This document shows positions 1 through 19,286 of a stretch of DNA of 22,857 bases, one piece after another. Below the pieces are notes generated by a model that saw only the letters and a list, made by a program, of their open reading frames with translations, made no database searches and was not told where the DNA came from. The position numbers and the translations under genes are program-made. Each line of letters starts with the position of its first letter. Within the stretch, counting starts at the first letter, position 1. The DNA is from Anaerolineae bacterium. GTDB lineage: Bacteria > Chloroflexota > Anaerolineae > B4-G1 > SLSP01. The stretch spans positions 1 through 22,857 of the forward strand of contig JAFGSL010000723.1 in the NCBI GenBank assembly GCA_016934645.1, written 5' to 3'.

Positions 1-307
1 AAATCGGCACGTAGCGGTTCAGGTCCTCGCCTTTGAAGGCGTTGGTGACGACGGTCTGGTTTTGCACGCACACCAGGTCGTCGAACCCGCCGGCACCGCG
101 CAGCGCCTGGATCGTGCCCTCAAGCTGCCAGGGCGTCGTGTTCGCCCCCGGCATTGGGAAATGCCAGGTGATGTTGTCCTTGAGGATGGTGGTAGCGGCA
201 GGATCGAGCGCTTTGGCTCCACCAGCTAGGGTAAACAAGCGTTGGTAGTCTTCCAGCACCGTCTCCGGCTGCGTGTACAAGACGGCCACTTTCGCTCTTT
301 GTGTCAT
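1..307 (-). CDS. DUF362 family protein, 3' end outside window
   Basis: N-terminal 102 codons of a gene running off the left edge; the frame is open from the ATG at 305-307 to base 1. An AAAGGA ribosome site lies about 6 bases upstream of the ATG. The product starts MTQRAKVAVLY, then has KDNITWHFPMPGANTTPW near residues 43-60 and a VVTNAFKGEDLNRY stretch near residues 85-98. This pattern (a Lys/Asn-containing strand, a TTPW motif, then a K-G-E segment) is what I recognise from the DUF362 family, whose biochemical role is mostly unknown and some members of which carry Fe-S clusters; no cluster motif is in the visible part. It is last in a likely operon behind the lyase, with a 140-bp gap holding a 66-bp palindromic repeat. 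Family assignment is from memory of the motif pattern. Confidence 0.72.
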   Translation of the reverse strand, partial: MTQRAKVAVLYTQPETVLEDYQRLFTLAGGAKALDPAATTILKDNITWHFPMPGANTTPWQLEGTIQALRGAGGFDDLVCVQNQTVVTNAFKGEDLNRYVPI

Positions 308-334: not shown

Positions 335-400
335 ACGCTTCCAGCGGATCATAATCCGCTGGTGTCACAACTGCGCGGGATTGTGATCCCGCGCAAGCGT
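335..400. repeat. 66-bp two-hairpin palindromic repeat, copy 1
   Basis: Outer arms ACGCTT (335-340) and AAGCGT (395-400) enclose two perfect hairpins: AGCGGAT-cata-ATCCGCT (343-360) and GCGCGGGAT-tgtg-ATCCCGCGC (373-394). The layout is a stem with two side arms. A second copy of exactly the same length lies at 8798-8863. It sits between the lyase and DUF362 genes, so it would be transcribed if these form an operon and could fold in the mRNA. Confidence 0.85.
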
Positions 401-447
401 ATCAATAGTGAGGTGGAGCTTTTGTCAGTTCCATCCGTTGAGAAAAC

Positions 448-2490
448 TTATACCCAAGAAACAGCCCACTGCTGGCTCTCGCCGCCGAAGGTGACGCGCC
501 ACGTCTTGCCGCCGCTACTCACGGTGAGGTGGATGGCATCATCATCGGCAGCTTCTCTACACACACTGCCTGCGCCTTCGTGGATGACGGCGGTGAGGAA
601 GCGTGTAGGCACTGGGCCACTGGTGGTGTAGAGCAGTTGCGGCGCGGGCACTTTGACGGCATAACCGTAGGAGACCCACCCACCCTTCGGCTTGAGTGAC
701 CCTTCCAACACGCGGCTTTCCAGCCCGTTGAGCAAAACCGGCATAATCCTTGCCTTGATCCGCTCGCCGTGGTAGATGTAAGTGCCGGGCGCATCTGTGG
801 CGGCTTCCAACTGCCGGGGCGGGAAGTTTAACGAGAGCTGGTAGGTGTGATCGCCTACGCCGGTGAGCACATCGTCGATCAGCCAGACGCCGGGTTTGAA
901 GGCCAACACGCGCCGCAGGTGGAAGACCGGATCGTCCATAAAGGCGTAACCGTTGTGCGACACCTCGATCAAGTCTACATCCTCCCCCGGTTCGAAGCGG
1001 TGGAGGAAGGTGCGCAGACAGCGGATGCGGAAGTGCGTGTCGGGAACCGCGCCCATGATGTGGTCATCCACGCCGACGGTGTTATGCGCGTTGGTGGAGT
1101 AGAAGTAGTCGCGCCAATCCTTCCACGCGCAATTGCCGTAGATGTAGCGCCCGGTGTCGATGAGCACGTCCTCACCCGCGATGTGCAGCTCGAGGTGCGC
1201 GGCGTCGAAGTGCGAGTGCGCGCTGCTCTCCCCACGCTCCAACTGCGTCCCCGTGACCAGCGCATAGGAATCGGTCGCTTCCCAGCCGGTGCGGACAACG
1301 TGAAAGCCGGGATCGGGCAGCGAGTAGTTCTTTTGCGCGGGTGCTCTCCCTTCCTGGCGACATGTGGCGAAGTAACAGAAGTCCTCACGCCCGGTGAGTT
1401 CCGCCATCACGCGGAAGAAGGCGCGCAGCTCGTTCATGTCGCGCGCGTCGGTAGTGAGGTTCATGCCCTCGTAGAGCGCGGTGTCCGCTCGCCGGTCGCG
1501 CAGCGCGTTGCGGTCCGCGTCGCCGATCATCGGCAGCGTGAGATCGGGCTTCACCAGCAGCATCAGGTATTCGGCGGTCTTTTCCAGGATGGGCAGCATG
1601 TAGGGCGGCACGGGGATGTTGTTGAGCGTGGCGATGCGGTAGGCCTGCAAAAACGCGCCCGCCGCCACCATATGGTAGATGGGCGTGCGCTCCATGTGGA
1701 CGCCGTAGTGGTCGAACTGGTAGCGCACTTCGTGGGTGATCCGGCGGTAGCCCAGCCGCTGCCATTCGGCGGCCTGCTTGAACTCAGGGAACAGCACGCC
1801 CAGTTGGAATAGTGACGTCGCCTCCATCGTCAGCCAGTTGCTCGCGTGGCTGTGGTTGCTGTAGTGCGGGCAGAGGAACTCGCCGTGATCGTGCAGCGCG
1901 TTGAGGAAGCAGACCCAGCCCTCGTCATCCCACGAAGGGGACGCGCGAAAGTAGACGAGCATCGGCGACCAGATCGTGTAGATGCGGATGCCCGCTTCGA
2001 TGGAGCGCCACGCATTGCCGGGGAAGAGCATGTGCGAGTCGGCGTCGTTCATGTGCTCCGCCATCGGCCAACTGGCGACGAAGCTCTTGAGTTGATCGAC
2101 GAATTCGCGGGCGTACTTCTCATCGCCGGTGAGCGCGTAGGCGCGGCCCAGCGTGGCCCACCAGTTGTGCCGGGCCAGCGACCACATCCACTCCGGGTCG
2201 CGGGACGAATCCACCGTCGGGTTGAAGTGCCAATCGATCACCGGGCCGAGGTCGTAGCCGTAGATGAAGTGGTCGCAAATCTGATCGGCGTCGGCGACGA
2301 TGGTATCGTCGTGGAACGCCGCGATATCCGTCTCGTCGAACAAGTATACCGGCTCCGTGCGCGTGCGGAAGTGGTCGATGACGGCGTGTAATGCGCCTGT
2401 CTCGTCGCCCGCCTCCAGCCGCGCGCGGGCTTCGGTCAATCTGGGATGATTGAAATCCAATCGTGAAAACAAGGTTCTTGAGTCAGACAT
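448..2490 (-). CDS. Heparinase II/III-family polysaccharide lyase
   Basis: 680 aa. Predicted to cleave uronate-containing polysaccharide or oligosaccharide by beta-elimination. The N-terminal two-thirds is alpha-helical (toroid-type) with SNHSHASNW at 211-219 and GVHMERTPIYH at 263-273, matching the conserved Asn/His and Tyr/His regions of the family. The C-terminal beta-sandwich has AHSHFDAAHLEL at 424-435, then DVLIDTG and STNAHNTV (465-472), the metal/His segment of heparinase II/III-like proteins. The start is set at 2490, where AAGGAG lies 8 bases upstream; an in-frame ATG at 2541 would overlap the previous gene and lacks such a site. No signal peptide is seen, so it probably acts in the cytoplasm on imported oligosaccharides. 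It lies 47 bp behind the flavoprotein gene, same strand. Substrate (heparin, alginate, other) cannot be told from sequence. Confidence 0.9.
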   Translation of the reverse strand: MSDSRTLFSRLDFNHPRLTEARARLEAGDETGALHAVIDHFRTRTEPVYLFDETDIAAFHDDTIVADADQICDHFIYGYDLGPVIDWHFNPTVDSSRDPEWMWSLARHNWWATLGRAYALTGDEKYAREFVDQLKSFVASWPMAEHMNDADSHMLFPGNAWRSIEAGIRIYTIWSPMLVYFRASPSWDDEGWVCFLNALHDHGEFLCPHYSNHSHASNWLTMEATSLFQLGVLFPEFKQAAEWQRLGYRRITHEVRYQFDHYGVHMERTPIYHMVAAGAFLQAYRIATLNNIPVPPYMLPILEKTAEYLMLLVKPDLTLPMIGDADRNALRDRRADTALYEGMNLTTDARDMNELRAFFRVMAELTGREDFCYFATCRQEGRAPAQKNYSLPDPGFHVVRTGWEATDSYALVTGTQLERGESSAHSHFDAAHLELHIAGEDVLIDTGRYIYGNCAWKDWRDYFYSTNAHNTVGVDDHIMGAVPDTHFRIRCLRTFLHRFEPGEDVDLIEVSHNGYAFMDDPVFHLRRVLAFKPGVWLIDDVLTGVGDHTYQLSLNFPPRQLEAATDAPGTYIYHGERIKARIMPVLLNGLESRVLEGSLKPKGGWVSYGYAVKVPAPQLLYTTSGPVPTRFLTAVIHEGAGSVCREAADDDAIHLTVSSGGKTWRVTFGGESQQWAVSWV

Positions 2491-2532
2491 TGCGTATCTC
2501 CTTGACGAGTTGCGAGTTAAGAGTTGCAAACG

Positions 2533-2555
2533 GCGAATCATGATTCATGATTCGC
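2533..2555. repeat. 23-bp palindrome at end of the flavoprotein gene
   Basis: Perfect arms of 11 bases (GCGAATCATGA at 2533-2543 and TCATGATTCGC at 2545-2555) around a single T at 2544. It covers the last codons and the stop of the DHODH-like gene and faces the 47-bp gap before the lyase start. It could be an mRNA stem between two operon genes or a small repeat that supplied the gene's C-terminal residues. No T-run follows, so it is not an obvious terminator. Confidence 0.7.
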
Positions 2556-3779
2556 TGATTCATATGTGGAAGCCAGAATATCCCCAGCGGGAACTTCGAG
2601 TGCGCCAGTCGGGCAAACCTGGAAGCAGTAGCCGCACCCGACGCAGGCGTCGCTTTTGACCGCAAGGCCGTCCTGCATCGAAATGGCATTGTACCAGCAC
2701 ACGTCCTGGCATTGCTCGCAGCCGGTGCACCGATCAGGGATCGTCTGCGCGGCCCGGTAGGCGGTGGACAGTTTGCTCCGGCGGTTGTCTGCTACTTCGG
2801 GTGACATCGTGAGCAGGTGCAGGGCCTCGCCGCGCAGGGCTTCGATGTCCGCGTATCCGGCTTTGTCTATCCATGCGGCGAAGCCCGCGATCAGTTTAGC
2901 GACGGCGCGCGGCCCCAGGCAGCAGGCGAACGAACCGAGCTGCACGCACTCGCTGCCCGCCATGATGAGCTTGGCTGCCGCTTCCCAACTGAAGACCCCG
3001 CCGCCCGCGTACATCGGGAGTTCGATCCCGTTCAGGCGCGCTTCGGCCACCACGTAGCTGATGACGGGGAGCGCGTCGCTGCCGCCGTAGCCGCCGCCGG
3101 GCGTGGCCCGCGACCTCCGCCAGTCCAGGTCGAAGACGAAGCCTTTCCAACGCGCGGTAGGACCAATCGCGTCGGCTCCGCCGTGAAGTGCAGCCTCCAT
3201 TGCCCGCAGTGGATCGCAAGACTCCACGGGCAGCTTCACCACCACCGGAATGTGGACGGCTCGCTTGATCGTCTTGGTCACGGTGGTGATCAGCCGGTAG
3301 AAGTCGAAGAGTCTTCCACCCACGACGACGACACCCGGCGTATTGAAGTGCAATTCCAGCGCGTTAGCCCCAGCCCGTTCAACCTCGATGGCTTCGCGTA
3401 CCCAATCCCTGCGCCAGTCCCTACCGGGCGTGATAAGATCGTGGAAGTGCCCGATGGAGACCCACAATTTGACCTCCGGCGGCATCTCGCGGCGCACGTG
3501 CGCGACGGCGGCGCAGTAGTCGTCGAGCGAGTCGAAAGGATCGCTCAGACGTGCGCCCAGCGCGTGGCTTTGCATAGCGGGTTTCCCCGTCCGCAAGTCC
3601 GCCGTGGAGGGCAGCACCAGCGAACCATCGCCCGCACCATGCCCGAAGTTGCGCATCGTCACCGCGCCGGGGTGCGCGCTGGCGCTTTTCAGGACGGCAT
3701 ACGCCCCCTGCGTCGCCGGGCTGGCAGCGATCACGAACGGGTTTTGTAGTCCCAGTGATTTGACAGACAGATCAGCCAT
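2538..3779 (-). CDS. DHODH/PreA-like flavoprotein with two ferredoxin motifs
   Basis: 413 aa. Residues 1-330 form a dihydroorotate/dihydropyrimidine-dehydrogenase-like TIM barrel: NPFVIAASPAT (13-23), VVVKLP (179-184, FMN-contacting Lys) and an FMN-phosphate-type segment AGGGVFSWEAAAKLIMAG (258-275). Residues 351-390 hold two 4Fe-4S motifs, CTGCEQCQDVC and CVGCGYCFQVCP, as in PreA. The loop that normally carries the catalytic Cys (NxSCP) reads FNTPG (145-149), so the usual catalytic base is absent; the reaction is probably not standard pyrimidine chemistry. First gene of the minus-strand operon, with a promoter at 3836-3863. An NADH- or ferredoxin-linked redox step on a sugar- or pyrimidine-derived substrate is possible, but the substrate is unknown. 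Confidence 0.82.
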   Translation of the reverse strand: MADLSVKSLGLQNPFVIAASPATQGAYAVLKSASAHPGAVTMRNFGHGAGDGSLVLPSTADLRTGKPAMQSHALGARLSDPFDSLDDYCAAVAHVRREMPPEVKLWVSIGHFHDLITPGRDWRRDWVREAIEVERAGANALELHFNTPGVVVVGGRLFDFYRLITTVTKTIKRAVHIPVVVKLPVESCDPLRAMEAALHGGADAIGPTARWKGFVFDLDWRRSRATPGGGYGGSDALPVISYVVAEARLNGIELPMYAGGGVFSWEAAAKLIMAGSECVQLGSFACCLGPRAVAKLIAGFAAWIDKAGYADIEALRGEALHLLTMSPEVADNRRSKLSTAYRAAQTIPDRCTGCEQCQDVCWYNAISMQDGLAVKSDACVGCGYCFQVCPTGALEVPAGDILASTYESANHES

Positions 3780-3835
3780 TGTTTAACCCCTTGTCGGACA
3801 AGTATCAAGCTTCGAGTAACCAGCATCCAGTTCTC

Positions 3836-3863
3836 AGTATAGAAACTTTGCGATTGTAGTCAA
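3836..3863 (-). promoter_or_regulatory. Sigma-70-type promoter of the flavoprotein/lyase operon
   Basis: Read on the minus strand: -35 TTGACT (3858-3863), a 16-bp spacer and -10 TATACT (3836-3841). Transcription would start near 3829, about 50 bases before the ATG. The -35 box lies in a 10-bp perfect palindrome GTCAATTGAC (3859-3868), a possible operator shared with the divergent xpt gene. Confidence 0.6.
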
Positions 3864-3896
3864 TTGACCCTTCTCTGCATTTCCCTGCCCCACCTG

Positions 3897-3931
3897 TTGC
3901 AAAGCCGGGGTTTAGCGATAGAATACCCGGC
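3897..3931 (+). promoter_or_regulatory. Candidate xpt promoter with flanking inverted repeat
   Basis: -35 TTGCAA (3897-3902), a 16-bp spacer and -10 TAGAAT (3919-3924). The inverted repeat GCCGGG (3904-3909) / CCCGGC (3926-3931) brackets the -10 box and could be an operator. The predicted leader is about 50 bases, too short for a purine riboswitch, and I see none. Confidence 0.4.
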
Positions 3932-3980
3932 ATGGGATCGTGTCTCCCAAAATGCAAAAGCGGAGGATGAGGTAAAAGGC

Positions 3981-4562
3981 ATGGAAAGGTTGAAAGAACG
4001 TATCCTAAGCGAGGGGAAAAACCTAGGTAGCGGAATTCTCAAGATCGACAGCGTGATCAATCACCAAGTCGACGCCACGTTGATGTTAGAGGTGGGTGCG
4101 GAGTTCGCCCGCCGCTTTGCAGACGAGCATCCCACACGCGTGCTCACCGCTGAAGTGTCTGGCATCGTTCCGGCGATGGCGGCGGCATATGCACTGGGCC
4201 TGCCCCTGGTCTACGCCCGTAAACACAAGCCGGTGACGATGCAGGAACCGGTGTTCGTGGAGTTTGCGCCGTCGCACACCAAGGGCGGTCAGGTTTCGCT
4301 GATGGTGTCCCCAGAATTCATATCCCCTGGAGACCGCGTGCTCATCATCGACGATTTTCTCGCCACCGGGCAAACCATTGCGGCGATGGCCCGGATTGTC
4401 AACGACGCCGGCGCCACGCTGGTCGGCATCGGCACACTCGTCGAAAAATCATTCGAGGGCGGACGTGCCTTGCTGGACCCGCTGGACGTCCCGATTGAGT
4501 CGATGGTCATCATTACCGAAATGCGCGACGACGGCACCATCACCTTCGCCGACGACAAGTAG
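3981..4562 (+). CDS. xpt: Xanthine phosphoribosyltransferase
   Basis: 193 aa, the size of Bacillus-type Xpt (194 aa). It transfers ribose-5-phosphate from PRPP to xanthine, giving XMP, in the cytoplasm. The PRPP-binding motif VLIIDDFLATGQT is at 120-132, and ARKHKPV at 79-85 matches the conserved ARKHK segment of Xpt. The start at 3981 gives the family-typical N-terminus MERLKERILSEGKNLG...ILKIDSVINHQVD and has GAGG 8 bases upstream; the frame is open further up but that part is unlike the family and overlaps the promoter. The next gene, guaA, uses the product XMP, so the pair forms a xanthine-to-GMP salvage route. PurR-type or riboswitch control is not visible. Confidence 0.93.
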   Translation: MERLKERILSEGKNLGSGILKIDSVINHQVDATLMLEVGAEFARRFADEHPTRVLTAEVSGIVPAMAAAYALGLPLVYARKHKPVTMQEPVFVEFAPSHTKGGQVSLMVSPEFISPGDRVLIIDDFLATGQTIAAMARIVNDAGATLVGIGTLVEKSFEGGRALLDPLDVPIESMVIITEMRDDGTITFADDK

Positions 4563-4596
4563 ATTTCACCTCGAATCTTCACGAATCAAGTTTTTC

Positions 4597-4681
4597 GACA
4601 GGATTAACAGGATTTTCAAGATTGGGTCTAGCACGGTTAGCATATAGCGTTTTTCATCCTGTCAATCTTGTAAATCCTGTC
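4597..4681. repeat. Inverted repeat of 9-bp-periodic units between xpt and guaA
   Basis: Arms of 26 bp (4597-4622 and 4656-4681) match at 21 of 26 positions when one is reverse-complemented. Each arm is made of degenerate 9-mers (ACAGGATTA, ACAGGATTT, TCAAGATTG). A farther pair ACGAATC (4581-4587) / GATTCGT (4706-4712) extends the symmetry. It fills most of the 171-bp gap; it could form a long imperfect hairpin that attenuates read-through from xpt. A related three-unit tract is at 18320-18346. Confidence 0.65.
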
Positions 4682-4733
4682 TAAAAAACATTGTTCTTTT
4701 GTGGAGATTCGTGGTTTGATTAGGAGAGACCCC

Positions 4734-6293
4734 GTGACCCCACAAGAAACCATCGTCATCCTGGATTACGGTTCGCAGTACACACAGCTTATCGCCCGGC
4801 GTGTCAGGGAACAACACGTTTATGCCGAGATTCTGCCCTGGAACGCGCCGGAAGCGCAGGTGATGGCTCGCCGTCCGGTGGGCCTTATTCTTTCCGGTGG
4901 CCCGAACAGCGTCTATGACGCGGGCGCGCCAAGTCTACCGGACTACATCACGCGTATCGAAGTGCCTGTGCTCGGCATCTGCTACGGGATGCATCTGCTG
5001 GCGTACACGCTCGGCGGGCAGGTCGTTCCGGGCACGGCGCGCGAGTACGGCCCTGCCGAAGTGGACATCCTCGAAGCAGATACACCCTTGTTTGCAGGCC
5101 TAGACGCCCGGCAGGCCGTGTGGATGAGCCACGGTGACCGTGTCAAGGCGCTACCGCCAGGATTTCGCGTGCTGGCACGCAGTAGCGGTGGCATCCTCGC
5201 CGCGGTTGGCGAAGACGCAGGCCAGGTCTACGGAGTGCAGTTCCATCCGGAGGTGCAGCACACGCCCAACGGAGCTTCCATGCTGCGGCAATTCCTCTAT
5301 GCCGTGTGCGGCTGCCATGGGACGTGGACGACGGAGGCGTTTATCGAAGCAGCCGTAGCCCGCGTGCGCGCACAAGCCGATGACCCTTCGACAAGCTCAG
5401 GGGCCGGGCGGGTCGTGTGTGGCTTGAGCGGGGGCGTTGACAGCGCGGTTGTGGCGGCGCTGCTCCACAAGGCCATCGGCGATCAACTCACGTGCATCTT
5501 TGTGGACACAGGTCTTTTGCGGCGCGACGAAGCCGCGCAGGTCAAGGCCACGTTCCAGGAGGCATTGGGCGTCCGGTTGGTGATGGTGGATGCGTCGGAT
5601 CGCTTCCTGAACGCGCTGTCCGGGGTCACCGACCCCGAGCAGAAGCGGCGAATCATCGGCGAGCAATTCATCCGCGTTTTCGAGACCGAAGCGCGTCAAA
5701 TAGGTGCCGCATTCCTCGCACAGGGCACGATCTATCCCGATGTGATCGAAAGCGCAGGCAGCGCCAGCGCGCACAAGATCAAATCGCACCACAACGTCGG
5801 TGGACTGCCGGAGGATATGCATCTGGAACTCGTCGAACCGCTACGTGACCTCTTCAAAGACGAAGTGCGGCAGGTGGGCCTGGAACTGGGATTGCCGGAG
5901 AAACTCGTCTGGCGGCATCCCTTCCCCGGGCCTGGATTGGCGGTGCGCATCCTGGGCGAGATCACCCGCGAACGCGTCACCACGCTGCAAGCCGCCGACG
6001 CGATCTTCCTGGAAGAGCTGTGGAACGCCGGACTCTACCGGGAGACGGCACAGGCCTTCGCCGTGCTGCTGCCGGTGCGCAGCGTCGGCGTGATGGGCGA
6101 TGGACGTACATATGCCCACGTCATCGCCCTGCGCGCCGTCACCACCGAGGACTTTATGACCGCCGATTGGGCGCGGCTGCCCTATGACCTGCTCGGTCGC
6201 GTCGCCAACCGCATCGTCAACGAAATCCCTGCGGTCAACCGCGTCGTCTACGACGTGAGCAGCAAACCGCCCGCCACGATCGAGTGGGAATAA
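4734..6293 (+). CDS. guaA: GMP synthase (glutamine-hydrolysing)
   Basis: 519 aa. Converts XMP to GMP with ATP and glutamine. Class I glutamine amidotransferase domain, residues about 6-195: nucleophile Cys83 in GICYGM, with His171 and Glu173 in FHPEV. ATP-pyrophosphatase domain from about 225: PP-loop SGGVDS at 232-237. C-terminal dimerisation domain ends in KPPATIEWE, the normal GuaA end. The start is GTG at 4734, with AGGAGA 6 bases before it; an upstream in-frame ATG at 4701 lacks a ribosome site and adds non-homologous residues. Oddity: residues 218-225 (PSTSSGAG), just before the PP-loop strand, are extra compared with E. coli GuaA and are encoded by a short palindrome-like repeat (5385-5403). 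Confidence 0.96.
5385..5403. repeat. Small repeat inserted in frame in guaA
   Basis: The 19-mer CCCTTCGACAAGCTCAGGG, with CCCT/AGGG ends, encodes PSTSSG in the linker between the two GuaA domains. I recall this sequence as a common dispersed repeat in many environmental bacterial genomes; it is the only copy I see in this window. The insertion keeps the frame and falls in an interdomain linker, which explains why it is tolerated. Confidence 0.7.
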
Positions 6294-6340
6294 GCATATA
6301 TCAATAGCGATCTTCTCCGATATTGTGCATGGAAATCTCT

Positions 6341-6438
6341 GTGATCTCAGCGTGCTCTGTGTGAGATGTGGGAGATCACCAGACAGAACTGTCTAGCCGC
6401 CTCACGAAAGTATGTTACAATGCCTCGGACGTAACGTC
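6341..6438. promoter_or_regulatory. Upstream region of the MFS gene: three inverted repeats and a -10-like box
   Basis: GTGATCTC (6341-6348) pairs with GAGATCAC (6372-6379). A perfect 14-bp palindrome AGACAGAACTGTCT is at 6381-6394, and GACGT-A-ACGTC is at 6428-6438. The box TACAAT at 6416-6421 is the best -10 candidate; no good -35 lies 16-18 bases before it, where the AGACAG palindrome sits instead. The arrangement fits a regulated promoter with operators on both sides, but this is inference. The rest of 6294-6493 shows nothing else. Confidence 0.35.
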
Positions 6439-6493
6439 GGAACCACCTGGGGGTTATAACAAGCAACTAGCAATACATCATTAGGAGGATATT

Positions 6494-7756
6494 ATGACGG
6501 CAGCAACAGAGGCAATATCAAGTATCAAAATAAAAGTCCGCAGTAGAAATTATCTCGTTTATCTCATTATCTTCATGGGATTGGTCGCCGTGTTGGACCA
6601 ATACATCTCGATGATCAAAACTACGGCGATTCCATACATCATCGAAGAATACGGTATCACTGCCTCCGACTTTTCCTGGTACGAGGCGCTCTACCTGGCC
6701 GCTACATTCTTCATCTTTTTGCTGAATGGTCTCAACGACATCATCGGGCGCAAATATTCCATTCTTATTCTTGTTCTGTTGATGGGACTGTCCACACTTG
6801 GTATGGTCCTCTTCACCCCAACATTGCACCTCTTTATGGTGTTCTACGCGATTGCAATGTTCACAACGGTCTCCAACATGTGGTCGATCCCGATCAGCGA
6901 GGAGTCACCCGCTAAGAAACGTGCCAAATATGTATCGATTGTCTACGTCATAGGCCTAATCCCGCTGCAGGCGATCTTGCCGCCGCTCCTGATGGATGTC
7001 CTGGGGCTGAGCTGGAAATGGATGTACGGTGTGACGTTCGTGATGATGATTCCGGCGCTCGTAATGTGGTTCTTTATGCGCGAAACCAGCCGTTACAACG
7101 TTGTCAAGGCCGAGCGCCGCGCGGGAACCCGCAAGAATCACCTATTTGGCGTGGGCGTCATCAACCGGCAGGACATTCGCTACATCCTCATCGCTGCATC
7201 GATCTGGTTGTCCTGGTTGGTCTACCAGTTCCTCTACTTCTGGGCCGGCTATTACTTTATGGACCTCCACGGCTACACCCTGGGACAGTGGTCGATGGTG
7301 CTGCTGGCCTCGTTGGTGATGGCGATCATCGGCGGGGTAGGTGCCGGCTCGATTATGGATCGCATCGGACGAAAGCCAGCCTTCATCGGCGGGTGTGTTG
7401 GCCTGTCGTTGATCCTCGTCGTCCTGGGCTTTGGTCGGGGCTGGATTTTGCCCGTGGCGGCCGCCCTCACCGGTTTCTTCACCTCATTCACCTACACATG
7501 GATCGTCGTCTACGTACCGGAGGTCTTCCCCACCGAGCGGCGCGGCGCGTGTATGGGCTGGACAACCACAGTGGCGCGAATATCCTACGTTGTGGGACCG
7601 GCCCTAGCTGCCATCCTGCTGAAGGCTTTCCCCACGATGGAGTGGTTCTGGGTCGCCGCTGCTGTGTTGATATTGGTTCCCATTGCCATTATGCGGTTCG
7701 CCAATCCCTACGAGACCAAAACACACGAGTTGGAAGAGATCGAGCACAAGCGGTAA
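6494..7756 (+). CDS. MFS transporter, sugar-porter-like
   Basis: 420 aa, twelve predicted membrane helices (roughly 20-40, 65-85, 88-108, 112-130, 148-170, 175-195, 230-250, 270-290, 296-315, 318-340, 360-380, 385-405) in the inner membrane. The loop motif NDIIGRK after helix 2 and DRIGRK after helix 8 are the paired MFS signatures; PEVFPTERRGACMG near helix 10-11 matches the PExxPTxxRG motif of sugar porters and related families. TM1 carries an Asp (VLDQY) seen in proton-coupled members. A strong AGGAGG site is 5-6 bases before the ATG. The kinase gene follows after 3 bp, so the pair is probably co-translated: uptake followed by phosphorylation of a small solute. Substrate is unknown; a sugar or sugar derivative is favoured by the neighbours. 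Confidence 0.88.
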   Translation: MTAATEAISSIKIKVRSRNYLVYLIIFMGLVAVLDQYISMIKTTAIPYIIEEYGITASDFSWYEALYLAATFFIFLLNGLNDIIGRKYSILILVLLMGLSTLGMVLFTPTLHLFMVFYAIAMFTTVSNMWSIPISEESPAKKRAKYVSIVYVIGLIPLQAILPPLLMDVLGLSWKWMYGVTFVMMIPALVMWFFMRETSRYNVVKAERRAGTRKNHLFGVGVINRQDIRYILIAASIWLSWLVYQFLYFWAGYYFMDLHGYTLGQWSMVLLASLVMAIIGGVGAGSIMDRIGRKPAFIGGCVGLSLILVVLGFGRGWILPVAAALTGFFTSFTYTWIVVYVPEVFPTERRGACMGWTTTVARISYVVGPALAAILLKAFPTMEWFWVAAAVLILVPIAIMRFANPYETKTHELEEIEHKR

Positions 7757-7759
7757 ACC

Positions 7760-8764
7760 ATGCAGACAATTACAAACGCGCCCTTCATCGATGTTGCTGC
7801 GCGGCGTTATGGCGTCCCTGCCGCTGACCTCACACCGATGGTGGGCGGGCACGTCACCCACGTCTACAGCTTCACCAGAGATGGCAAGAACTACGTGCTC
7901 AGGATTACACCGCCCAACGAGGAAATCAGTCTGTCCGCAATGCGCGCCATCCTGCCGTGGATGCACTTCCTCGCTGAGGGTGGCGCTTCGGTCGCCGCGC
8001 CCGTGCTTTCGCAAAACGGCAACTTGATTGAGCTTATCGAACAAGACGGGCAGACCTACATCGCTGTGGCCTTCGAGAGAGCGCCGGGCATCCGGGGAGA
8101 GGAACTTACCTTCGACCAGTGGAACGATGCACTCTTCGAATGCTTGGGGCAGACCGCCGGCAAAATGCACGCGCTCGCCAAGCTCTACACACCATCCAGC
8201 GCCGATCTCAGACGCCCCGAGTGGGATGCCGCTGTCAACTGTTACCATCCCCCGGAAGAACTGCCGCCGTCGGAAGCGATCGTTGCGGAGAAACAAGCGC
8301 GCATTTTCGAGATCGTGCAGGCGCTGCCCAAAGACGAAGACAGCTACGGGATGATCCACGCGGACTTGCACGGTGGCAATTTCTTCGTGGACGTGGACAC
8401 AAACACGATCACCGTCTTCGATTTCGACGATTGCGCCTACGGCTGGTACGTGATGGACATTGCGATGAGTGTATTCGATATGCTCGTTCTCTATCCAGGG
8501 GCGGATCGCGAAGCTTTCACCGTACGTTTTTTGCAAAGCTACCTCAAAGGCTACCAAGTCGAAAACTCGCTCAGTGGCTTCTGGCTCGGCCAGCTTCCAC
8601 ATTTCCTCAAACTGCTAGAAATCGGCGTCTACGCCGAGGTTCGTACTTATCACGATCCCGCCGACACGGAGTCGTGGGTGGGAAAGTTTATGACAAATCG
8701 CAAATTCCGCATCGAGCACGATGTTCCCTACATCGATCTCGACTTCGAATATCTGCCAGAATGA
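7760..8764 (+). CDS. APH-fold phosphotransferase (small-molecule kinase)
   Basis: 334 aa, in the aminoglycoside phosphotransferase/choline kinase/homoserine kinase II superfamily. The catalytic loop HADLHGGNFF is at 200-209 (Asp202 base, Asn207 metal), and the metal-binding DFDD at 221-224 is followed by YGWYVMDIA. The N-terminal lobe has YVLRIT (45-50) with the ATP-lobe basic residue replaced by Arg, as in some family members. ATG lies 3 bp after the MFS stop, in the same operon. Members of this fold phosphorylate sugars, hexosamines, amino acids or antibiotics; position behind a porter and near glycosidases favours a sugar, but resistance or a stress kinase (SrkA type) cannot be excluded. 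Confidence 0.85.
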   Translation: MQTITNAPFIDVAARRYGVPAADLTPMVGGHVTHVYSFTRDGKNYVLRITPPNEEISLSAMRAILPWMHFLAEGGASVAAPVLSQNGNLIELIEQDGQTYIAVAFERAPGIRGEELTFDQWNDALFECLGQTAGKMHALAKLYTPSSADLRRPEWDAAVNCYHPPEELPPSEAIVAEKQARIFEIVQALPKDEDSYGMIHADLHGGNFFVDVDTNTITVFDFDDCAYGWYVMDIAMSVFDMLVLYPGADREAFTVRFLQSYLKGYQVENSLSGFWLGQLPHFLKLLEIGVYAEVRTYHDPADTESWVGKFMTNRKFRIEHDVPYIDLDFEYLPE

Positions 8765-8797
8765 GTCATTAAGAATCTATCCTGAATTGTTCTTCAA

Positions 8798-8863
8798 ACG
8801 CTTCTGGCGGATCACAATCCGCCGTTGCCGAGGCAGCGCGGGATTGTAATCCCACGCAAGCGT
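8798..8863. repeat. 66-bp two-hairpin palindromic repeat, copy 2
   Basis: Same layout and length as 335-400: outer ACGCTT (8798-8803) / AAGCGT (8858-8863), hairpin GGCGGAT-caca-ATCCGCC (8806-8823), hairpin GCGCGGGAT-tgta-ATCCCACGC (8836-8857, one C/A mismatch). Relative to copy 1 the first stem has a paired A-T to G-C change, so the pairing is kept. The linker TGCC-ga-GGCA (8826-8835) can form a third small hairpin in this copy. It stands 34 bp behind the kinase stop and 83 bp before the GH95 start. Confidence 0.85.
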
Positions 8864-8946
8864 ATCGGTGTCGAATCCTCGGATAGGTTTACGCATTGAT
8901 TCAAACTTGACGCGCATTTCCCGTACAATGGGCGAGGAGGTGAATT

Positions 8947-11355
8947 ATGGTATCCCCCCGATTCAACCAGTTGTGGTACACCCGACCGGCAACGCAGTGG
9001 ACCGAGGCGCTGCCGGTGGGCAACGGTCGGCTCGGCGCGATGGTGTTCGGCGGCGTCGCCACCGAGCGGCTGCAATTGAACGAGGACACGCTCTGGTCGG
9101 GCCATCCGTGCGATTGCGATAACCCGGAAGCGCTGCAGTACCTTCCGCAGGTGCGTGAGGCCGTCTTCGCCGGAGACTACGCCCGTGCCGACGAACTATC
9201 CAAACATATGCAGGGGCCATTCAATCAGAGTTACTTACCGTTTGGGGATTTGATCCTAGAATTCGGCGATGGCAATGACATCTTTCAGGTCTATCGCCGT
9301 TCCCTTGACCTGGACACGGCGCTAGCGGAGACGACGTACACCGTAGGTGGCATCACCTTCACGCGGCAGGCCTTCGCTTCCGCGCCGGACAACGCCATCG
9401 TGATGCGCCTGGCGTGCGATCACCCCGGCGCGCTGAACTTCACCGTGAGGTTGGACAGCCCGCTGCACCACCGGGTCACGGCATGGGGAACCAGCCTGAT
9501 GCTGCGCGGCCAAGCCCCCCAACACGTGGATCCGAGCTATCTCCCCTCCGAGAACCCCATCATTTACGGCGACGAGGGGCTGACGTTCGCCGCACTGTTG
9601 GACGCTCGCGTCACGGGCGGCACCACCACGGCGGAGGATGACCAGTTACGTATCGCCGGTGCAGACGAGGTCGTGCTACTGCTCTGCATGGCAACGAGCT
9701 TCACCGGCTTCGACAAACACGAAGGGCTTAACCCGGTCGCGCGTGTCACACCGATGATGGCAGCGATCCACGACAAACCCTACGCCGCGCTGCTGCAAGC
9801 GCATCTCGACGATTACCAACCACTTTTTCACCGGGTCAGCCTCGATTTGGGGTCGCTCGGCAACGAGTCCCGGCCCACCGACGAGCGCATCCAGCAATTC
9901 CAGGCGGATCCCGACCCGGCCCTGGTGAGCCTGCTCTTCCAATACGGGCGCTATCTGCTTATCGCCAGTTCCCGCCCGGGGACACAGCCTGCCAACCTGC
10001 AGGGCATCTGGAACGACATGGTGCGCCCGCCATGGAGCAGCAACTGGACGCTCAACATCAACACACAAATGAACTACTGGCCCGCCGAGATTGTCAATCT
10101 GGCGGAATGTCACCTGCCGCTGTTCGACCTCATCCGCGCTTTGAGCGTCAACGGCGCGAAGACGGCGCGGACCAATTACGGCTGTCGTGGCTGGTGCAGC
10201 CACCACAACGCCGACCTGTGGGCGCAATCCGCGCCGGTGGGCAACTACGGCGGCGGGCAGCCAATGTGGGCCAACTTCGCACTCAGCGCTCCGTGGCTGT
10301 GCTTCGATTTGTGGGAGCACTACACTTTCGGCGGTGACGAGGCTTTTCTGCACGACGTGGCTTATCCACTGATGAAAGGCGCGGCGGAATTCTGCCTGGA
10401 TTGGCTGGTTGAGGATGGCGAAGGTAACCTCGTCACGTGCCCCGCCGTCTCCTGTGAAAACGTCTTCGTCACTCCAGACGGTGTGGCGGCGCAGACCGCG
10501 CTGGCGACGGCGCAGGATATATCCCTCATTGCCCAACACTTCGACAACTGCCTAGCTGCCGCAGCGGCGCTGAGTATCGACGATGACTTTGTCGCTGAAG
10601 TCCGAGCAGCACGGGCGCGGCTTTACCCGCTTAAAATCGCGCGCGATGGCAGCGTCCAGGAATGGGCTGGACCGGGCGGCGCAGGCGCGGACTGGGAAAG
10701 CCAGGACCCGCATCACCGTCACATCTCGCACCTGATCGGGCTGTATCCCGGCAACCTCATCACTGAGCGAGAGACGCCGGAGTTGTTCGCCGCGTGCAAG
10801 CGCTCACTCGATCTGCGCGGTGACGAGAGCACCGGCTGGTCGATGGCGTGGAAGGTCAACTGCTGGGCGCGCCTCAAAGATGGCGATCGTGCGTTCAAAG
10901 TATTGTCGCAACTCTTCACGCCGGTAGACGCCAGCGAGGGGAACTGGCAGCGGGGCGGCGTCTACCCGAACCTGTTCGATGCCCACCCACCCTTCCAGAT
11001 TGACGGCAACTTCGGCGCGACGGCAGGCATCGCGGAGATGCTCGTGCAGAGCCACACAAGCAAGCGTACAAGCACAGGCGTGATCGAGTTCCTGCCTGCG
11101 CTGCCTTTATGCTGGCCCACAGGTAGCGTGAAGGGCTTGCGCGTGCGCGGCAGCTTTGAGGTGGACATCGCCTGGCGAGACGGCAAGCTGATTAAGGCGA
11201 TGATTCGCTCTTTGCGGGGAGAGGAATGTAGGGTTGCGGCGAGTGAAAGGGCAATAACCACATGCGATGAGGCTCCGATTGTAGTGCAGCAGGACGACAG
11301 CACAATCGTCTTTGCGACAGAGGTGGGAAAGGTCTACTATGTGAAAGCAGATTAG
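8947..11355 (+). CDS. Glycoside hydrolase family 95 (alpha-L-fucosidase type)
   Basis: 802 aa. Inverting exo-hydrolase expected to release alpha-linked L-fucose (some members L-galactose). The N-terminal beta-sandwich begins [28 protein letters not shown], the classic GH95 opening. The (alpha/alpha)6 barrel has [12 protein letters not shown] at 370-381, whose Asn370/Asn372 match Asn421/Asn423 of Bifidobacterium AfcA; QEW at 571-573 and [13 protein letters not shown] at 590-602; and IDGNFG with Asp686, matching AfcA Asp766. The segment between QEW and HRH is [11 protein letters not shown] rather than the common acidic ED-rich stretch. AGGAGG is 6 bases before the ATG; a -10-like TACAAT is at 8924-8929 without a clear -35. 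No signal peptide, so it probably acts in the cytoplasm on oligosaccharides brought in by a transporter. Confidence 0.93.
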
Positions 11356-11431: not shown

Positions 11432-11731
11432 ATGAGTATGAAGATCAAAGTGCCACAAGCAAAAATCGCAGCGTTCTGCCGGCGTAACTTCATTCGCAAG
11501 TTAGCCCTTTTCGGTTCGGTGTTGCGCGATGACTTTACGCCCGACAGCGACGTGGACGTGCTGGTGGAGTTTGAGCCAGGCCACACGCCAGGACTGGCAT
11601 TTTTCCGAATGCAGCGAGAGTTGTCAGAAATTCTTGGCAAGAAAGCTGATCTCAACACAGCAAAGGATCTAAGCCCGTATTTCCGGCAACAAGTCCTCGA
11701 CGAAACAGAGGTACTCTATGTCACGCCATGA
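11432..11731 (+). CDS. mntA: MNT-domain nucleotidyltransferase, MntA-type antitoxin
   Basis: 99 aa. Minimal nucleotidyltransferase with the GSx10DxD signature: Gly28-Ser29, Asp40 and Asp42 (GSVLRDDFTPDSDVDV), and a third acidic residue Asp73 in KKADLNT. In characterised MntA/HepT pairs this enzyme adds AMP groups to the tyrosine beside the HEPN active site and so blocks the toxin. GAGG is 7 bases before the ATG; a second ATG two codons in is also possible. The downstream HEPN gene overlaps its last 14 bases, the usual arrangement. Confidence 0.88.
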   Translation: MSMKIKVPQAKIAAFCRRNFIRKLALFGSVLRDDFTPDSDVDVLVEFEPGHTPGLAFFRMQRELSEILGKKADLNTAKDLSPYFRQQVLDETEVLYVTP

Positions 11732-12062
11732 ACCGATGGTACGGGTGCACTACATGCTGGATCACGCCCGGGAAGCAGTGGAGATGGTTCACCATCGTTC
11801 CCGGGTAGACCTTGACATGGATAGAATGCTGAACCTGGCATTAGTGCGGTTAATGGAAATTGTTGGTGAAGCTGCCGTGCGAATGCCGGAGGCGTTTCGA
11901 TCCCGCTATCCCCAGATACCCTGGCGTGATGTGGCAGATCTGCGCAACCGGTTGATCCACGGTTACGACACCGTCGATTTCGACATTCTCTGGACGATCA
12001 TTCAGGAGGACCTTCCGCCACTGATCGAGCAACTGGAGACCATCCTGGAACAGCAGAACTAG
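11718..12062 (+). CDS. hepT: HEPN-domain protein, HepT-type RNase toxin (DUF86)
   Basis: 114 aa, helical. The catalytic RNase motif Rx4HxY is intact: Arg76, His81 and Tyr83 in RNRLIHGYDTVD, so both the ribonuclease residues and the target tyrosine of the partner are present. AGAGG lies 6 bases before the ATG, inside the antitoxin gene. Together with the MNT gene it forms a type VII toxin-antitoxin pair. Its TAG stop (12060-12062) uses the TA at the edge of the first IS630-type element; removing both elements restores aacTAGact, so the stop would be the same and the protein is complete. Confidence 0.88.
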   Translation: MSRHEPMVRVHYMLDHAREAVEMVHHRSRVDLDMDRMLNLALVRLMEIVGEAAVRMPEAFRSRYPQIPWRDVADLRNRLIHGYDTVDFDILWTIIQEDLPPLIEQLETILEQQN

Positions 12063-12140
12063 TGTTCCGTCAAGGTATGAATGACGGGTATTTTCCTGTG
12101 CAGCACTTTTACCCGTCATACTAATATTGAAAGAACACTA
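12060..12140. mobile_element. 81-bp MITE-like element with IS630-type ends
   Basis: Bounded by TA at 12060-12061 and 12139-12140, the target duplication expected of IS630/Tc1-type insertions. Ends are TAGTGTTC and GAACACTA, with an inner pair ATGACGGGTA (12081-12090) / TACCCGTCAT (12110-12119) around a 19-base loop. It has no coding capacity. The left end is nearly the same as the right end of the neighbouring IS (GTGTTC...AAGGTATGAATGACGGGTAT), so it may have been moved by a related transposase. Confidence 0.75.
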
Positions 12141-12870
12141 GTGCATTTTCAAGTGTTGAATGGCGGGTAAAGCCGTTTGAGTTTGATACGTGCATCTTGA
12201 GTTGTAAACTGTCAATCTACCGTCGTGGCTTGGGCATTCCGCTGTTCGTACCACGCGGTGACATATTGTTCAAGTTCCGTTTGCGAGGCCACGCGCGGGG
12301 GTAATCCTTGGCGCGTCAGCCCCGTGACTATCGGTAAAGGGCCGCCGGCATTCTCCAATCAGTTGGCGCAGGGATTCATCCAAGCAGACCACCGGATGTT
12401 GCGGATCATATGGACGTTGATAGACACCCAGGACTTCCTCCATCGCACACACAAATTCAGCGCCCGCATCAGGAATCAGCCAGCCTTTCACCCATCAGGG
12501 CTTGAGTGTGTTTTTTTGGCAACTGGCGCACGCTTTCATGGCTGATCGCCGCCACGTACCTCAATTCCACCATCCGATCCGCCAACAACTGCAGTGTCCA
12601 ACGTGCGCGCCCACTGGGCGGATCGCTACATCGCAAGGCCACTAATCGCGCTTCGACTACTCCATCAAACACCTTTTCTTTATACACTTCACGCGGTTTG
12701 CCGTGCCCTGCTATCTGGAAACCGTCCTATACAAGGCGTTTGCGTGTCCGTTCCACTGTGCGCATGCCCACCTGGTATGTTGTACTGATGCGCATATCAG
12801 GCCACTGGTGCGGGCCGTTTTCATCGCTTAGAATTACCATACCCGTCATTCATACCTTAAAAGAACACTA
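12139..12870. mobile_element. Decayed IS630-family insertion sequence
   Basis: About 732 bp between TA dinucleotides at 12139-12140 and 12869-12870. Terminal inverted repeats of 31 bp agree at 23 positions and share TAGTG, TGAATG and CGGGTA blocks. Full IS630 copies are about 1.0-1.2 kb, so this one has lost roughly a third. It shares its left TA with the MITE-like element. Confidence 0.8.
12149..12849 (-). pseudogene. IS630 transposase remnant
   Basis: Recognisable pieces in order on the minus strand: an N-terminal segment MTGMVILSDENGPHQWPD...RTRKRLV ending at a TAG (12727-12729); GVVEARLVALRCSDPPSGRARWTLQLLADRMVEL...ISHESV; after a T7 run (12511-12517) that shifts the frame, KGWLIPDAGAEFVCAMEEVLGVYQRPYDPQHPVVCLDE with the first catalytic Asp; then a large internal deletion that removes the second Asp and the Glu; then EQYVTAWYEQRN, a TGA (12212-12214) where Trp is expected, and QFTTQDARIKLKRLYPPFNT. 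Several stops, a frameshift and lost catalytic residues make it inactive. Confidence 0.85.
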
Positions 12871-12906
12871 GACTGAAAAGGCGATTTGTGTACACTCTAC
12901 GTACAC
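12869..12906 (+). promoter_or_regulatory. Candidate promoter and operator before the phosphodiesterase
   Basis: TAGACT (12869-12874), a 16-bp spacer and TACACT (12891-12896) form a weak promoter whose -35 starts in the TA target of the IS. The inverted repeat GTGTAC (12888-12893) / GTACAC (12901-12906) with 7 bases between overlaps the -10 and could bind a repressor. Read another way, GTACACT occurs twice in direct order. Confidence 0.35.
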
Positions 12907-18408: not shown

Positions 18409-19263
18409 ATGCCTGACACAATAGCATCGACTATGCCACACATTGCCTTTGGCGACTATTCACTATCGCGTTTGATCCTCGGCGCGAACCCGATCAACGG
18501 CGGATCGCATCTGTCACGCTTTGTCAATATGCAGATGAAGCGTTACTTCACAGAAGAACGCATCCAGGAGACACTGCGGCAGTGCGAAGCGGTGGGCATC
18601 AATACGTGGCAATCCGGCCCGGTAAACCTGGAGGCCTACCACACTTACGTTGAAAACGGCGGCACAATGCACTACATCGGGCTGGCGAGTGACAACAAGC
18701 ATGATCCCACGATGCTCGAACGCCTCGTTGCAAGCGGGACCATCGGCGTGGCGCACCATGGCGAAGTCACCGACGTATTCTGGAAAACGGGACAGGTCGA
18801 CAAGGCGCGCGACTACTGCAAGCGCATTCGCGACGCGGGCGTCATGGTCGGCGTCTCCACGCACATGCCCGATGTGGTGGATCACATCGTCTCGGCTGGG
18901 TGGGATGTGGACTTCTTCATGTGCTGCGTCTACGAGCGCCACCGCAGCCCGGAGGAACTCAAGGCGCTGCTGGGCCACATTCCGCTGCCGCCGAAAGAGG
19001 TCTACCTGGAAAGCGATCCACCCCGGATGTATAAGGCCATGCGCGGAACAGACAAACCATGTCTCGCGTTCAAAATTCTGGCGGCAGGCCGTCTGTGCGA
19101 CAGGCAAGAATGGGTCGAGACCGCGTTTGAAGACGCTTTCCGGCAGATCAAGCCCAACGACGCCGTCATCGTGGGGATGTATCCTGAGTATGAGGATCAA
19201 ATTGCGATCAACGCCGAATATGTGCGGCGATTCGGCCAGAGCAAAAGAGTAAAAACACCGTAG
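18409..19263 (+). CDS. Aldo/keto-reductase-like TIM-barrel protein, function unknown
   Basis: 284 aa. The opening LSRLILGANPINGGSHLS and the later ETLRQCEAVGINTWQSG resemble the first strands of aldo/keto reductases (SRLGLGTxxxGG ... GINxxDT), and later segments IGVAHHGEVTD, VMVGVSTHMPDVV and LAFKILAAGRL give the spacing of a TIM barrel. The AKR catalytic Tyr/Lys pair and the usual C-terminal NADPH-binding Arg-rich motif are not evident, so reductase activity is doubtful. AGGAGG is 6 bases before the ATG. It follows the GHL6 gene by 120 bp on the same strand and may share its transcript, suggesting a carbohydrate-related role. The stop codon lies within the terminator stem. Confidence 0.65.
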   Translation: MPDTIASTMPHIAFGDYSLSRLILGANPINGGSHLSRFVNMQMKRYFTEERIQETLRQCEAVGINTWQSGPVNLEAYHTYVENGGTMHYIGLASDNKHDPTMLERLVASGTIGVAHHGEVTDVFWKTGQVDKARDYCKRIRDAGVMVGVSTHMPDVVDHIVSAGWDVDFFMCCVYERHRSPEELKALLGHIPLPPKEVYLESDPPRMYKAMRGTDKPCLAFKILAAGRLCDRQEWVETAFEDAFRQIKPNDAVIVGMYPEYEDQIAINAEYVRRFGQSKRVKTP

Positions 19264-19286
19264 GGCAGGATGACCCTGCCCTACGG
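19258..19286. terminator. Bidirectional terminator between the TIM-barrel gene and pheT
   Basis: Perfect 12-bp stem CCGTAGGGCAGG (19258-19269) / CCTGCCCTACGG (19275-19286) with loop ATGAC. On the minus strand it is followed by TGTTTTTACTC, a good Rho-independent tail for pheST. The plus-strand gene's TAG stop (19261-19263) lies inside the left arm. Confidence 0.85.

Follow-up and report, generated by a model that had tools for sequence, protein, structure and literature searches.

An inverted-hairpin repeat family with a GCTT or GCTC foot in Chloroflexi: probable REPIN-type mobile DNA, one subfamily of which adjoins Shine-Dalgarno sites

Two 66-bp elements, each able to fold into a stem carrying two hairpins, lie at positions 335-400 and 8798-8863 of contig JAFGSL010000723.1 from an Anaerolineae bacterium (the window, i.e. 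the whole 22,857-nt stretch of DNA that was analysed). An earlier note on this DNA had pointed to a base pair compensated between the two copies and raised the question of what the structure is kept for: an RNA, or a DNA substrate for a transposase of the REP-associated tyrosine transposase (RAYT) type, REP standing for repetitive extragenic palindrome. From sequence comparisons, we put at about three in four the probability that the copies are non-autonomous mobile DNA of the REPIN type (paired REPs). Each would consist of two units in inverted orientation, a unit being a GCTT or GCTC foot (GCTY) followed by a short GC-rich hairpin, and would belong to a GCTY-foot family present across Chloroflexi and copied by a RAYT-type enzyme.

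The common plan of the copies is that of an imperfect palindrome: a GCTT foot, a hairpin GGAT-CACA-ATCC (or CATA), a spacer, a hairpin GGAT-TGTG-ATCC (or TGTA), and AAGC. These centres make the two hairpins inverted forms of one unit. Copy 1 (335-400, + strand; 73.7 bits with covariance model R1, whose training set included it) is an inverted pair of GCTT-foot hairpins with feet ACGCTT at 335-340 and AAGCGT at 395-400. The hairpin scan gives it a 9-bp perfect stem with loop CATA at 341-362(+) and a 10-bp perfect stem with loop TGTG at 372-395(+), the loops being complementary to each other with one G.T. The core of copy 2 (8798-8863, + strand; 79.1 bits) comprises ACGCTT at 8798-8803, hairpin GGCGGAT-CACA-ATCCGCC at 8806-8823(+), hairpin GCGCGGGAT-TGTA-ATCCCACGC at 8836-8857(+) and AAGCGT at 8858-8863. 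The hairpin layout first described therefore stands, save for its stem lengths of 7 and 9 bp: the perfect stems of copy 1 have 9 and 10 bp, and the second stem of copy 2 has 8/9 pairs, with one uncompensated C.A mismatch. The compensated substitution, AGCGGAT/ATCCGCT versus GGCGGAT/ATCCGCC, is indeed present. The length of 66 bp is that of the core; copy 2 exceeds it, as its homology to element L138 of genome G004 (genomes and loci bear our own handles) covers 8772-8883. The probable full unit is of 110 bp (8777-8886, + strand), with outer arms CTATCC (8777-8782) and GGATAG (8881-8886) common to copies in G001 and G004.

No direct repeat listed for the window is longer than the one formed by the two copies (69 nt at 81% identity), and an unfiltered model scan found no third copy there (next match at E = 0.08). 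Their folds are strong: in RNA folding both strands of both copies beat 200 of 200 dinucleotide shuffles (z from -4.3 to -6.0), the minimum free energy structure of the copy 2 + strand being another fold, one long hairpin. Both are intergenic within same-strand gene runs, as had been claimed, copy 1 between open reading frames (ORFs) 2-307(-) and 448-2541(-), and copy 2 between ORFs 7760-8764(+) and 8947-11355(+).

Many more copies exist in related genomes, as revealed by the covariance-model search which the earlier note had proposed. The PheT protein of the window host shows 90% identity to its G004 counterpart, 89% to the G003 one and 84% to the G002 one, and has two partial matches in G001, of 86% and 89%; G001 and G002 entered the analysis via contigs titled Chloroflexi bacterium UR.bin85 and S1bins75. 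Searched for exactly, the two-hairpin pattern turned up just twice in genome contigs and not at all in viral contigs (0 stretches), and viral spread of the element was rejected on the latter result. Similarity and model searches gave 46 matches in G001 and 18 in G002 (E ≤ 10), and a match at E ≤ 0.001 in 6 of 60 relatives of G002. With a family covariance model built from 43 copies, and counting both strands at E ≤ 0.01 with at most 150 candidates scored per genome, the matches among the candidates scored numbered 140 in G001, 77 in G004, 33 in G003, 17 in each of G002 and G010, and 8 in G005. Among 149 relatives of G001, 76 had a match at E ≤ 0.01 and 18 a best E ≤ 1e-10; the weak tail of these matches may be chance. 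A hand selection reduced 199 model matches to 100 places on the better strand, on which the loop, outer-arm and Shine-Dalgarno counts below are based; one overlapping match and eight additional, weaker places were set aside. Feet, layout, loops and spacer align across many loci and genomes, and the family has lineage-specific subfamilies, distinguished by the second stem. This stem reads CGCGGG in the window copies and CGCCGG in most of those fetched from G001, G003, G004, G005 and G013, and the CGCCGG subfamily lies preferentially just 5' of Shine-Dalgarno sites, in one orientation. Some hairpins stand alone, and others form tandem arrays of about 77 bp. Minisatellite-like arrays of single hairpin units occupy positions 1-270 of L023 (G001:C319; period about 77 bp) and 5542-5956 of G002:C65 (period 75-88 bp).

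The structure is conserved well beyond the window, and the covariation, only suggestive with two copies, proved far above shuffles. Over 43 mostly close copies, 90.4% of the cells pair and 6 of the 21 pairs change on both sides. In alignment A2, made of 35 of the 100 copies picked to span genomes, 96.9% of the cells pair and both partners vary in 15 of the 20 pairs (8.4 on average after shuffling), with a covariation score of 0.398 versus 0.140 for shuffled and at most 0.114 for slid controls. The feet (columns 5-8 of A2) covary as well, GCTC with GAGC (22) and GCTT with AAGC (7), their pairs being kept in 95.7% of the cells. The inverted-unit symmetry extends to the loops: in 28 of 67 copies one loop is the exact reverse complement of the other, where shuffling gives 10.4 on average and 18 at most, and outside the close relatives this holds for 17 of 33 copies (shuffled maximum 10), as illustrated by the GTACCC/GGGTAC and GGTCAC/GTGACC loops of G068 copies. 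L087 and L075 are exceptions, with a CACA loop in both hairpins as though one of them had flipped. Since stem covariation and reverse-complementary loops run through the family, the compensated pair of the window belongs to a general pattern; the reading that suits it best is that both copies are intact substrates for transposition, not that one was repaired after insertion.

Another proposed check, for a RAYT-type transposase, was made in related genomes and uncovered RAYT loci with pairs of GCTY-foot hairpins. Y1_Tnp genes are found in G001 (2), in G002 (4) and in 13 of 18 further genomes, most of them with other flanks or none. The first six loci, those of G001 and G002, had no good model match (best E = 0.029) and were dropped as direct neighbours of model-type copies. 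In G003, the RAYT gene of L250 has on both sides many GCTT-GCGGATC(GCCA)GATCCGC units with inverted GGGGAAC partners; units of its close homologue L047 in G002 (88% identical), unseen at a stem threshold of 8, were detected at stem 6. L240, in G127, codes for a 187-aa RAYT with tandem GCTC-GCGCGGAC(AACA)GTCCGCGC ... GGCTGGGC(TGTT)GCCCAGCC-GAGC pairs on both sides, and dispersed copies elsewhere in that genome have the same loops. At L262, in G094, the RAYT ORF adjoins GCTCA-CGGCGGAT(CACA)ATCCGCCG, where GGATCACAATCC is the hairpin centre of the window copies. Another RAYT ORF of G002 (L046, 1806-2249) ends inside its own tandem array AGCAAACTGACAGTTTGCTCTAC; this flanking array, AGCAAACTGACAGTTTGCT, is a second, different REP family in that genome.

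A tree of the transposases was built from 60 Y1 proteins of 66 loci (five duplicates, and L259, in which no ORF was found, were dropped). At least two GCTY-foot perfect hairpins occur at 8 of the 10 loci of one RAYT clade (SH-aLRT 100) versus 7 of the 50 loci outside it (Fisher, 8.8e-5), shuffled sequence yielding 0 to 0.4 per locus; inverted hairpin pairs within 45 nt occur at 5 of the 10 and at 0 of the 50. L250, L240 and L047 pass the NCBIfam model REP_Tyr_transpos (NF047646, 80 bits), below which the partial L262 ORF falls (61.5). In the RAYT clade of L250, HxH is present in 12 of 12 rows and Y[IV]H[ND]NP in 10 of 12; phmmer found no PDB match to it (0.01), and relatives of the clade exist in 29 of 199 genomes.

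By the mechanism that we envisage, the RAYT (TnpAREP, an HUH-Y1 enzyme) would bind the single-stranded folded unit, use the foot as a guide, and cleave and rejoin the unit; the folded unit being what is recognised, intact hairpins would get copied and others would decay. Several observations weigh against attributing the window copies to such an enzyme. The foot is not GT[AG]G. The hairpin label is only moderately clustered on the whole RAYT tree (10 changes, a number as low arising in 12 of 500 shuffles), and that tree carries a warning of long branches. No RAYT was found among the 17 window ORFs scanned with Pfam. G001, the genome richest in copies, has no clade-RAYT relative at E ≤ 1e-8, and in the second-richest, G004, the one relative is distant and lacks units; both assemblies may be incomplete. 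The RAYT with the loop of the window resides in G094, far from the window host (PheT identity 50%). Lastly, copy 2 and its relatives carry 13-nt-like terminal inverted repeats, a trait closer to miniature inverted-repeat transposable elements (MITEs).

Orthologous sites with and without the element bear directly on mobility. Copy 2 has an APH-family gene on one side and a GH95 gene on the other. At the syntenic APH-GH95 site of G001, with about 80% DNA identity, the gap measures 66 nt and has no element, versus 182 nt in the window; the difference of 116 nt agrees with the 110-bp armed unit of copy 2. The sole model match in this G001 locus (L294; E = 0.003) falls inside the GH95 gene. G003 was discarded as a clean empty site: the APH neighbour is present there, but a different gene follows. 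The heparinase gene next to copy 1 was without a match at 1e-60 in all 14 genomes searched. In G004, argG and a DUF362 gene each have an element upstream. Scanning covered 14 of 15 argG, 29 of 30 DUF362 and 9 of 13 APH loci; the element is present at 1 of the 14 argG and 1 of the 29 DUF362 loci, with no model match at the other 13 and 28. The start-codon-proximal bases of G004 (GAGGAGAG for argG, AGGAGAGAA for DUF362) are common to the G002 orthologues, which have no element, so that the ribosome-binding site looks native. Of the two branches offered at the outset, the DNA and RAYT branch is thus the one upheld, by the copies in relatives, the covariation, the presence/absence pattern and the RAYT genes flanked by GCTY-foot hairpin pairs. 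Judged on sequence, mobile DNA is favoured over RNA by the association with RAYT genes and by the occupied and empty sites, conservation between orthologous copies being mixed.

The alternative that survives best, though we consider it unlikely, is that the copies are MITEs of a classical (DDE) insertion sequence, with the outer arms CTATCCGARAATT as terminal repeats and the hairpin pair as cargo or internal fold. These arms, with their inverted partner, do extend copy 2 and the G-type copies of G001 and G004; the form CTATCC.../...GGATAG is shared by copy 2, L138, L306, L160 and L180 (in G094, where the arms read CTATCCGAAAA/TTTTCGGATAG), and the 116-nt length difference at the empty site suits a 110-bp armed unit. 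L065 keeps both arms around only a short ACGCTCGAAAGC middle, but it is also readable as a unit stripped of its hairpins, which is perhaps what it is. However, copy 1, where no terminal inverted repeats were seen and which ranks 81 of 99 for arm pairing, is without these arms, as are many copies of other genomes. Moreover, the hairpins are also found as solitary units and tandem arrays, and foot-hairpin pairs cluster around RAYT genes. A copy's own arms pair better than swapped ones among copies from outside the close relatives (n = 42, 0 of 5000 permutations), and not clearly better among those of the close relatives (n = 56, 518 of 5000). Because they were not significant in the latter, the arms were rejected as a general covarying stem and left out of the definition of the element; they may belong to a longer unit or serve a different enzyme as ends. 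L104, L116, L170, L171 and L180 are copies nested in long outer palindromes, with arm sequences differing from copy to copy, for some of them within G068.

Still less probable, in our judgement, is a functional structured RNA, the elements being 5'-untranslated leaders (regulatory, stabilising or attenuating) with stems kept by selection on the transcript. In its favour is the position of the CGCCGG copies (50 from the close relatives G001, G003, G004, G005 and G013) relative to Shine-Dalgarno (SD) sequences. Within 10-35 nt of the edge, the SD core AGGAG or GGAGG is found on the lower strand at the left edge of 32 of them, all at 15-20 nt, and at the right edge of none, where 2.3 would be expected by shuffling (left versus right, Fisher 2.5e-13). 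The window-type CGCGGG copies have it at neither side (0/13), and the remaining copies in 2/36 (left) and 3/36 (right); in these counts one copy was dropped for its short flank, and L141 (G004) was placed by hand with the 'other genomes'. Under a stricter rule, an SD plus an ORF of at least 60 aa within 80 nt, the CGCCGG copies score 29/45 on the left versus 2/45 on the right, the CGCGGG copies 4/13 and 2/13, and the remaining ones 13/42 and 9/42, ORFs and SDs being called by simple rules rather than by a gene finder. Two or three CGCCGG copies are mutually orthologous, so that the SD counts are not fully independent. Copy 1 is similarly placed, with a weak SD: the start codon of partial ORF 2-307(-) faces it, with the ATG 25 nt from the model edge and an SD-like AAAGGAC. 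The product of this ORF has no Pfam match at 1e-8 and shows 49% identity across 96 aa to the DUF362 protein that follows element L135 of G004; two DUF362-family genes have an upstream copy, one in G004 and the one starting at 307(-) in the window.

The strong RNA folds of the window copies would also suit a leader, as would one orthologous pair (L140/L162), in which the element is better conserved (0.91) than its two flanks (0.71 and 0.66). Yet in the two other orthologous pairs the element is no better kept than the flanks (0.92 versus 0.87 and 0.93; 0.73 versus 0.84 and 0.86), the argG and DUF362 orthologues are mostly without it, the window-type copies have no SD preference and the window has no Rfam match at the gathering score. 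Furthermore, the genes behind the copies are diverse: 18 of 20 proteins tested belong to Pfam families at 1e-8, nearly all different, among them argininosuccinate synthase, GH4, amidohydrolase, GDP-mannose dehydratase, MFS and flavodoxin. As for chance or simple terminator-like palindromes without common origin, small GC-rich hairpins are nothing unusual in genomes of this kind, but the idea is refuted by the copy counts per genome, the 18 of 149 genomes at E ≤ 1e-10, the alignable feet, layout, loops and spacer, the covariation beyond shuffled and slid controls, and a 26-base arm pattern with 0 matches in 100 shuffles of the window.

If the copies are REPIN-type mobile DNA, the SD placement calls for an explanation of its own. 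It could possibly result from a CTCCT-type target on the lower strand of the genes, from loss of insertions made elsewhere, or from a benefit; TnpAREP is reported, in the part of PMC8266576 considered here, to cleave at CT. We tentatively suggest, while leaning somewhat to the other side, that a RAYT-mobilised REPIN subfamily inserts just 5' of native SD sequences, in one orientation and with its left end abutting the CCTCC strand. Dozens of unrelated genes would then gain the same folded 5' leader, the target would in effect be the ribosome-binding site, and the leader might have been exapted as a translation or mRNA-stability module.

The window holds other repeats and structures. Inverted and direct repeats of 33 nt (CTAGTGTTC...) at 12058-12091, 12110-12142 and 12839-12871 enclose ORFs without Pfam matches and look like a decayed insertion element. 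Side by side at 11432-12062 are nucleotidyltransferase (PF01909) and HepT-like (PF01934) ORFs, likely an MNT/HEPN toxin-antitoxin pair. A 32-nt inverted repeat at 4591-4687 (CAGGATTAACAGGATT.../...AATCCTGTC), upstream of the GMP synthase ORF 4701-6293, is possibly another dispersed repeat, and a hairpin with a 12-bp stem at 19258-19286, between the convergent ORF 18409-19263(+) and pheT (19294-21867, - strand), is likely a terminator.

How does the family compare with known systems? The comparison was with parts of three papers on REPs and RAYTs. The family resembles REPIN/BIME elements and the REPtrons of TnpAREP/RAYT in having a tetranucleotide foot 5' of a short hairpin, inverted doublets, an intergenic location, occurrence both singly and in tandem, and RAYT genes with such units on their flanks (PMC6006769, PMC8266576). 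It differs from them in its foot, GCTT/GCTC instead of GT[AG]G, in paired feet that are complementary and covary (GCTT with AAGC, GCTC with GAGC), and in the longer outer arms of some subfamilies. Other REPs are described near the 3' ends of genes (PMC3733652), whereas one subfamily here adjoins SD sites. GTAG- and CGTC-tagged repeats are likewise small tagged palindromes, single or dimeric, and intergenic, but with tags that differ from that of the window family; GTAG repeats are reported in Chloroflexi, and CGTC repeats as unconnected to transposase genes (PMC3733652). Feet other than GTAG do exist beside HUH-Y1 genes, with class 3 TnpAY1 (CnGA foot) and subclass 2.6 (atypical structures) (PMC6006769); CnGA differs from GCTY, and subclass 2.6 was compared by its description only. 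TIRtrons (TIRYT) are also tyrosine transposase genes with flanking terminal inverted repeats, some self-complementary and dispersed (PMC3733652); in a comparison by description, their motif GGGGWSAS was not seen in the window family. In the parts of the three papers compared (PMC6006769, PMC3733652, PMC8266576), we found neither a GCTT/GCTC foot nor SD placement; the feet given there are GT[AG]G, CGTC and CnGA, with none specified for subclass 2.6. To judge from that material, it is likely, but not established, that the GCTY-foot family is previously unreported.

To conclude, RAYT/REP biology would extend to uncultured Chloroflexi, with a GCTT/GCTC foot. As this foot is new to the literature compared, the co-evolution of foot and RAYT, and the guide logic, become testable on a new pair. 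If the SD placement reflects targeting, a transposase of the domesticated type would reshape 5' leaders genome-wide; if it reflects selection, it would offer a natural experiment on the effect of a hairpin leader on translation.

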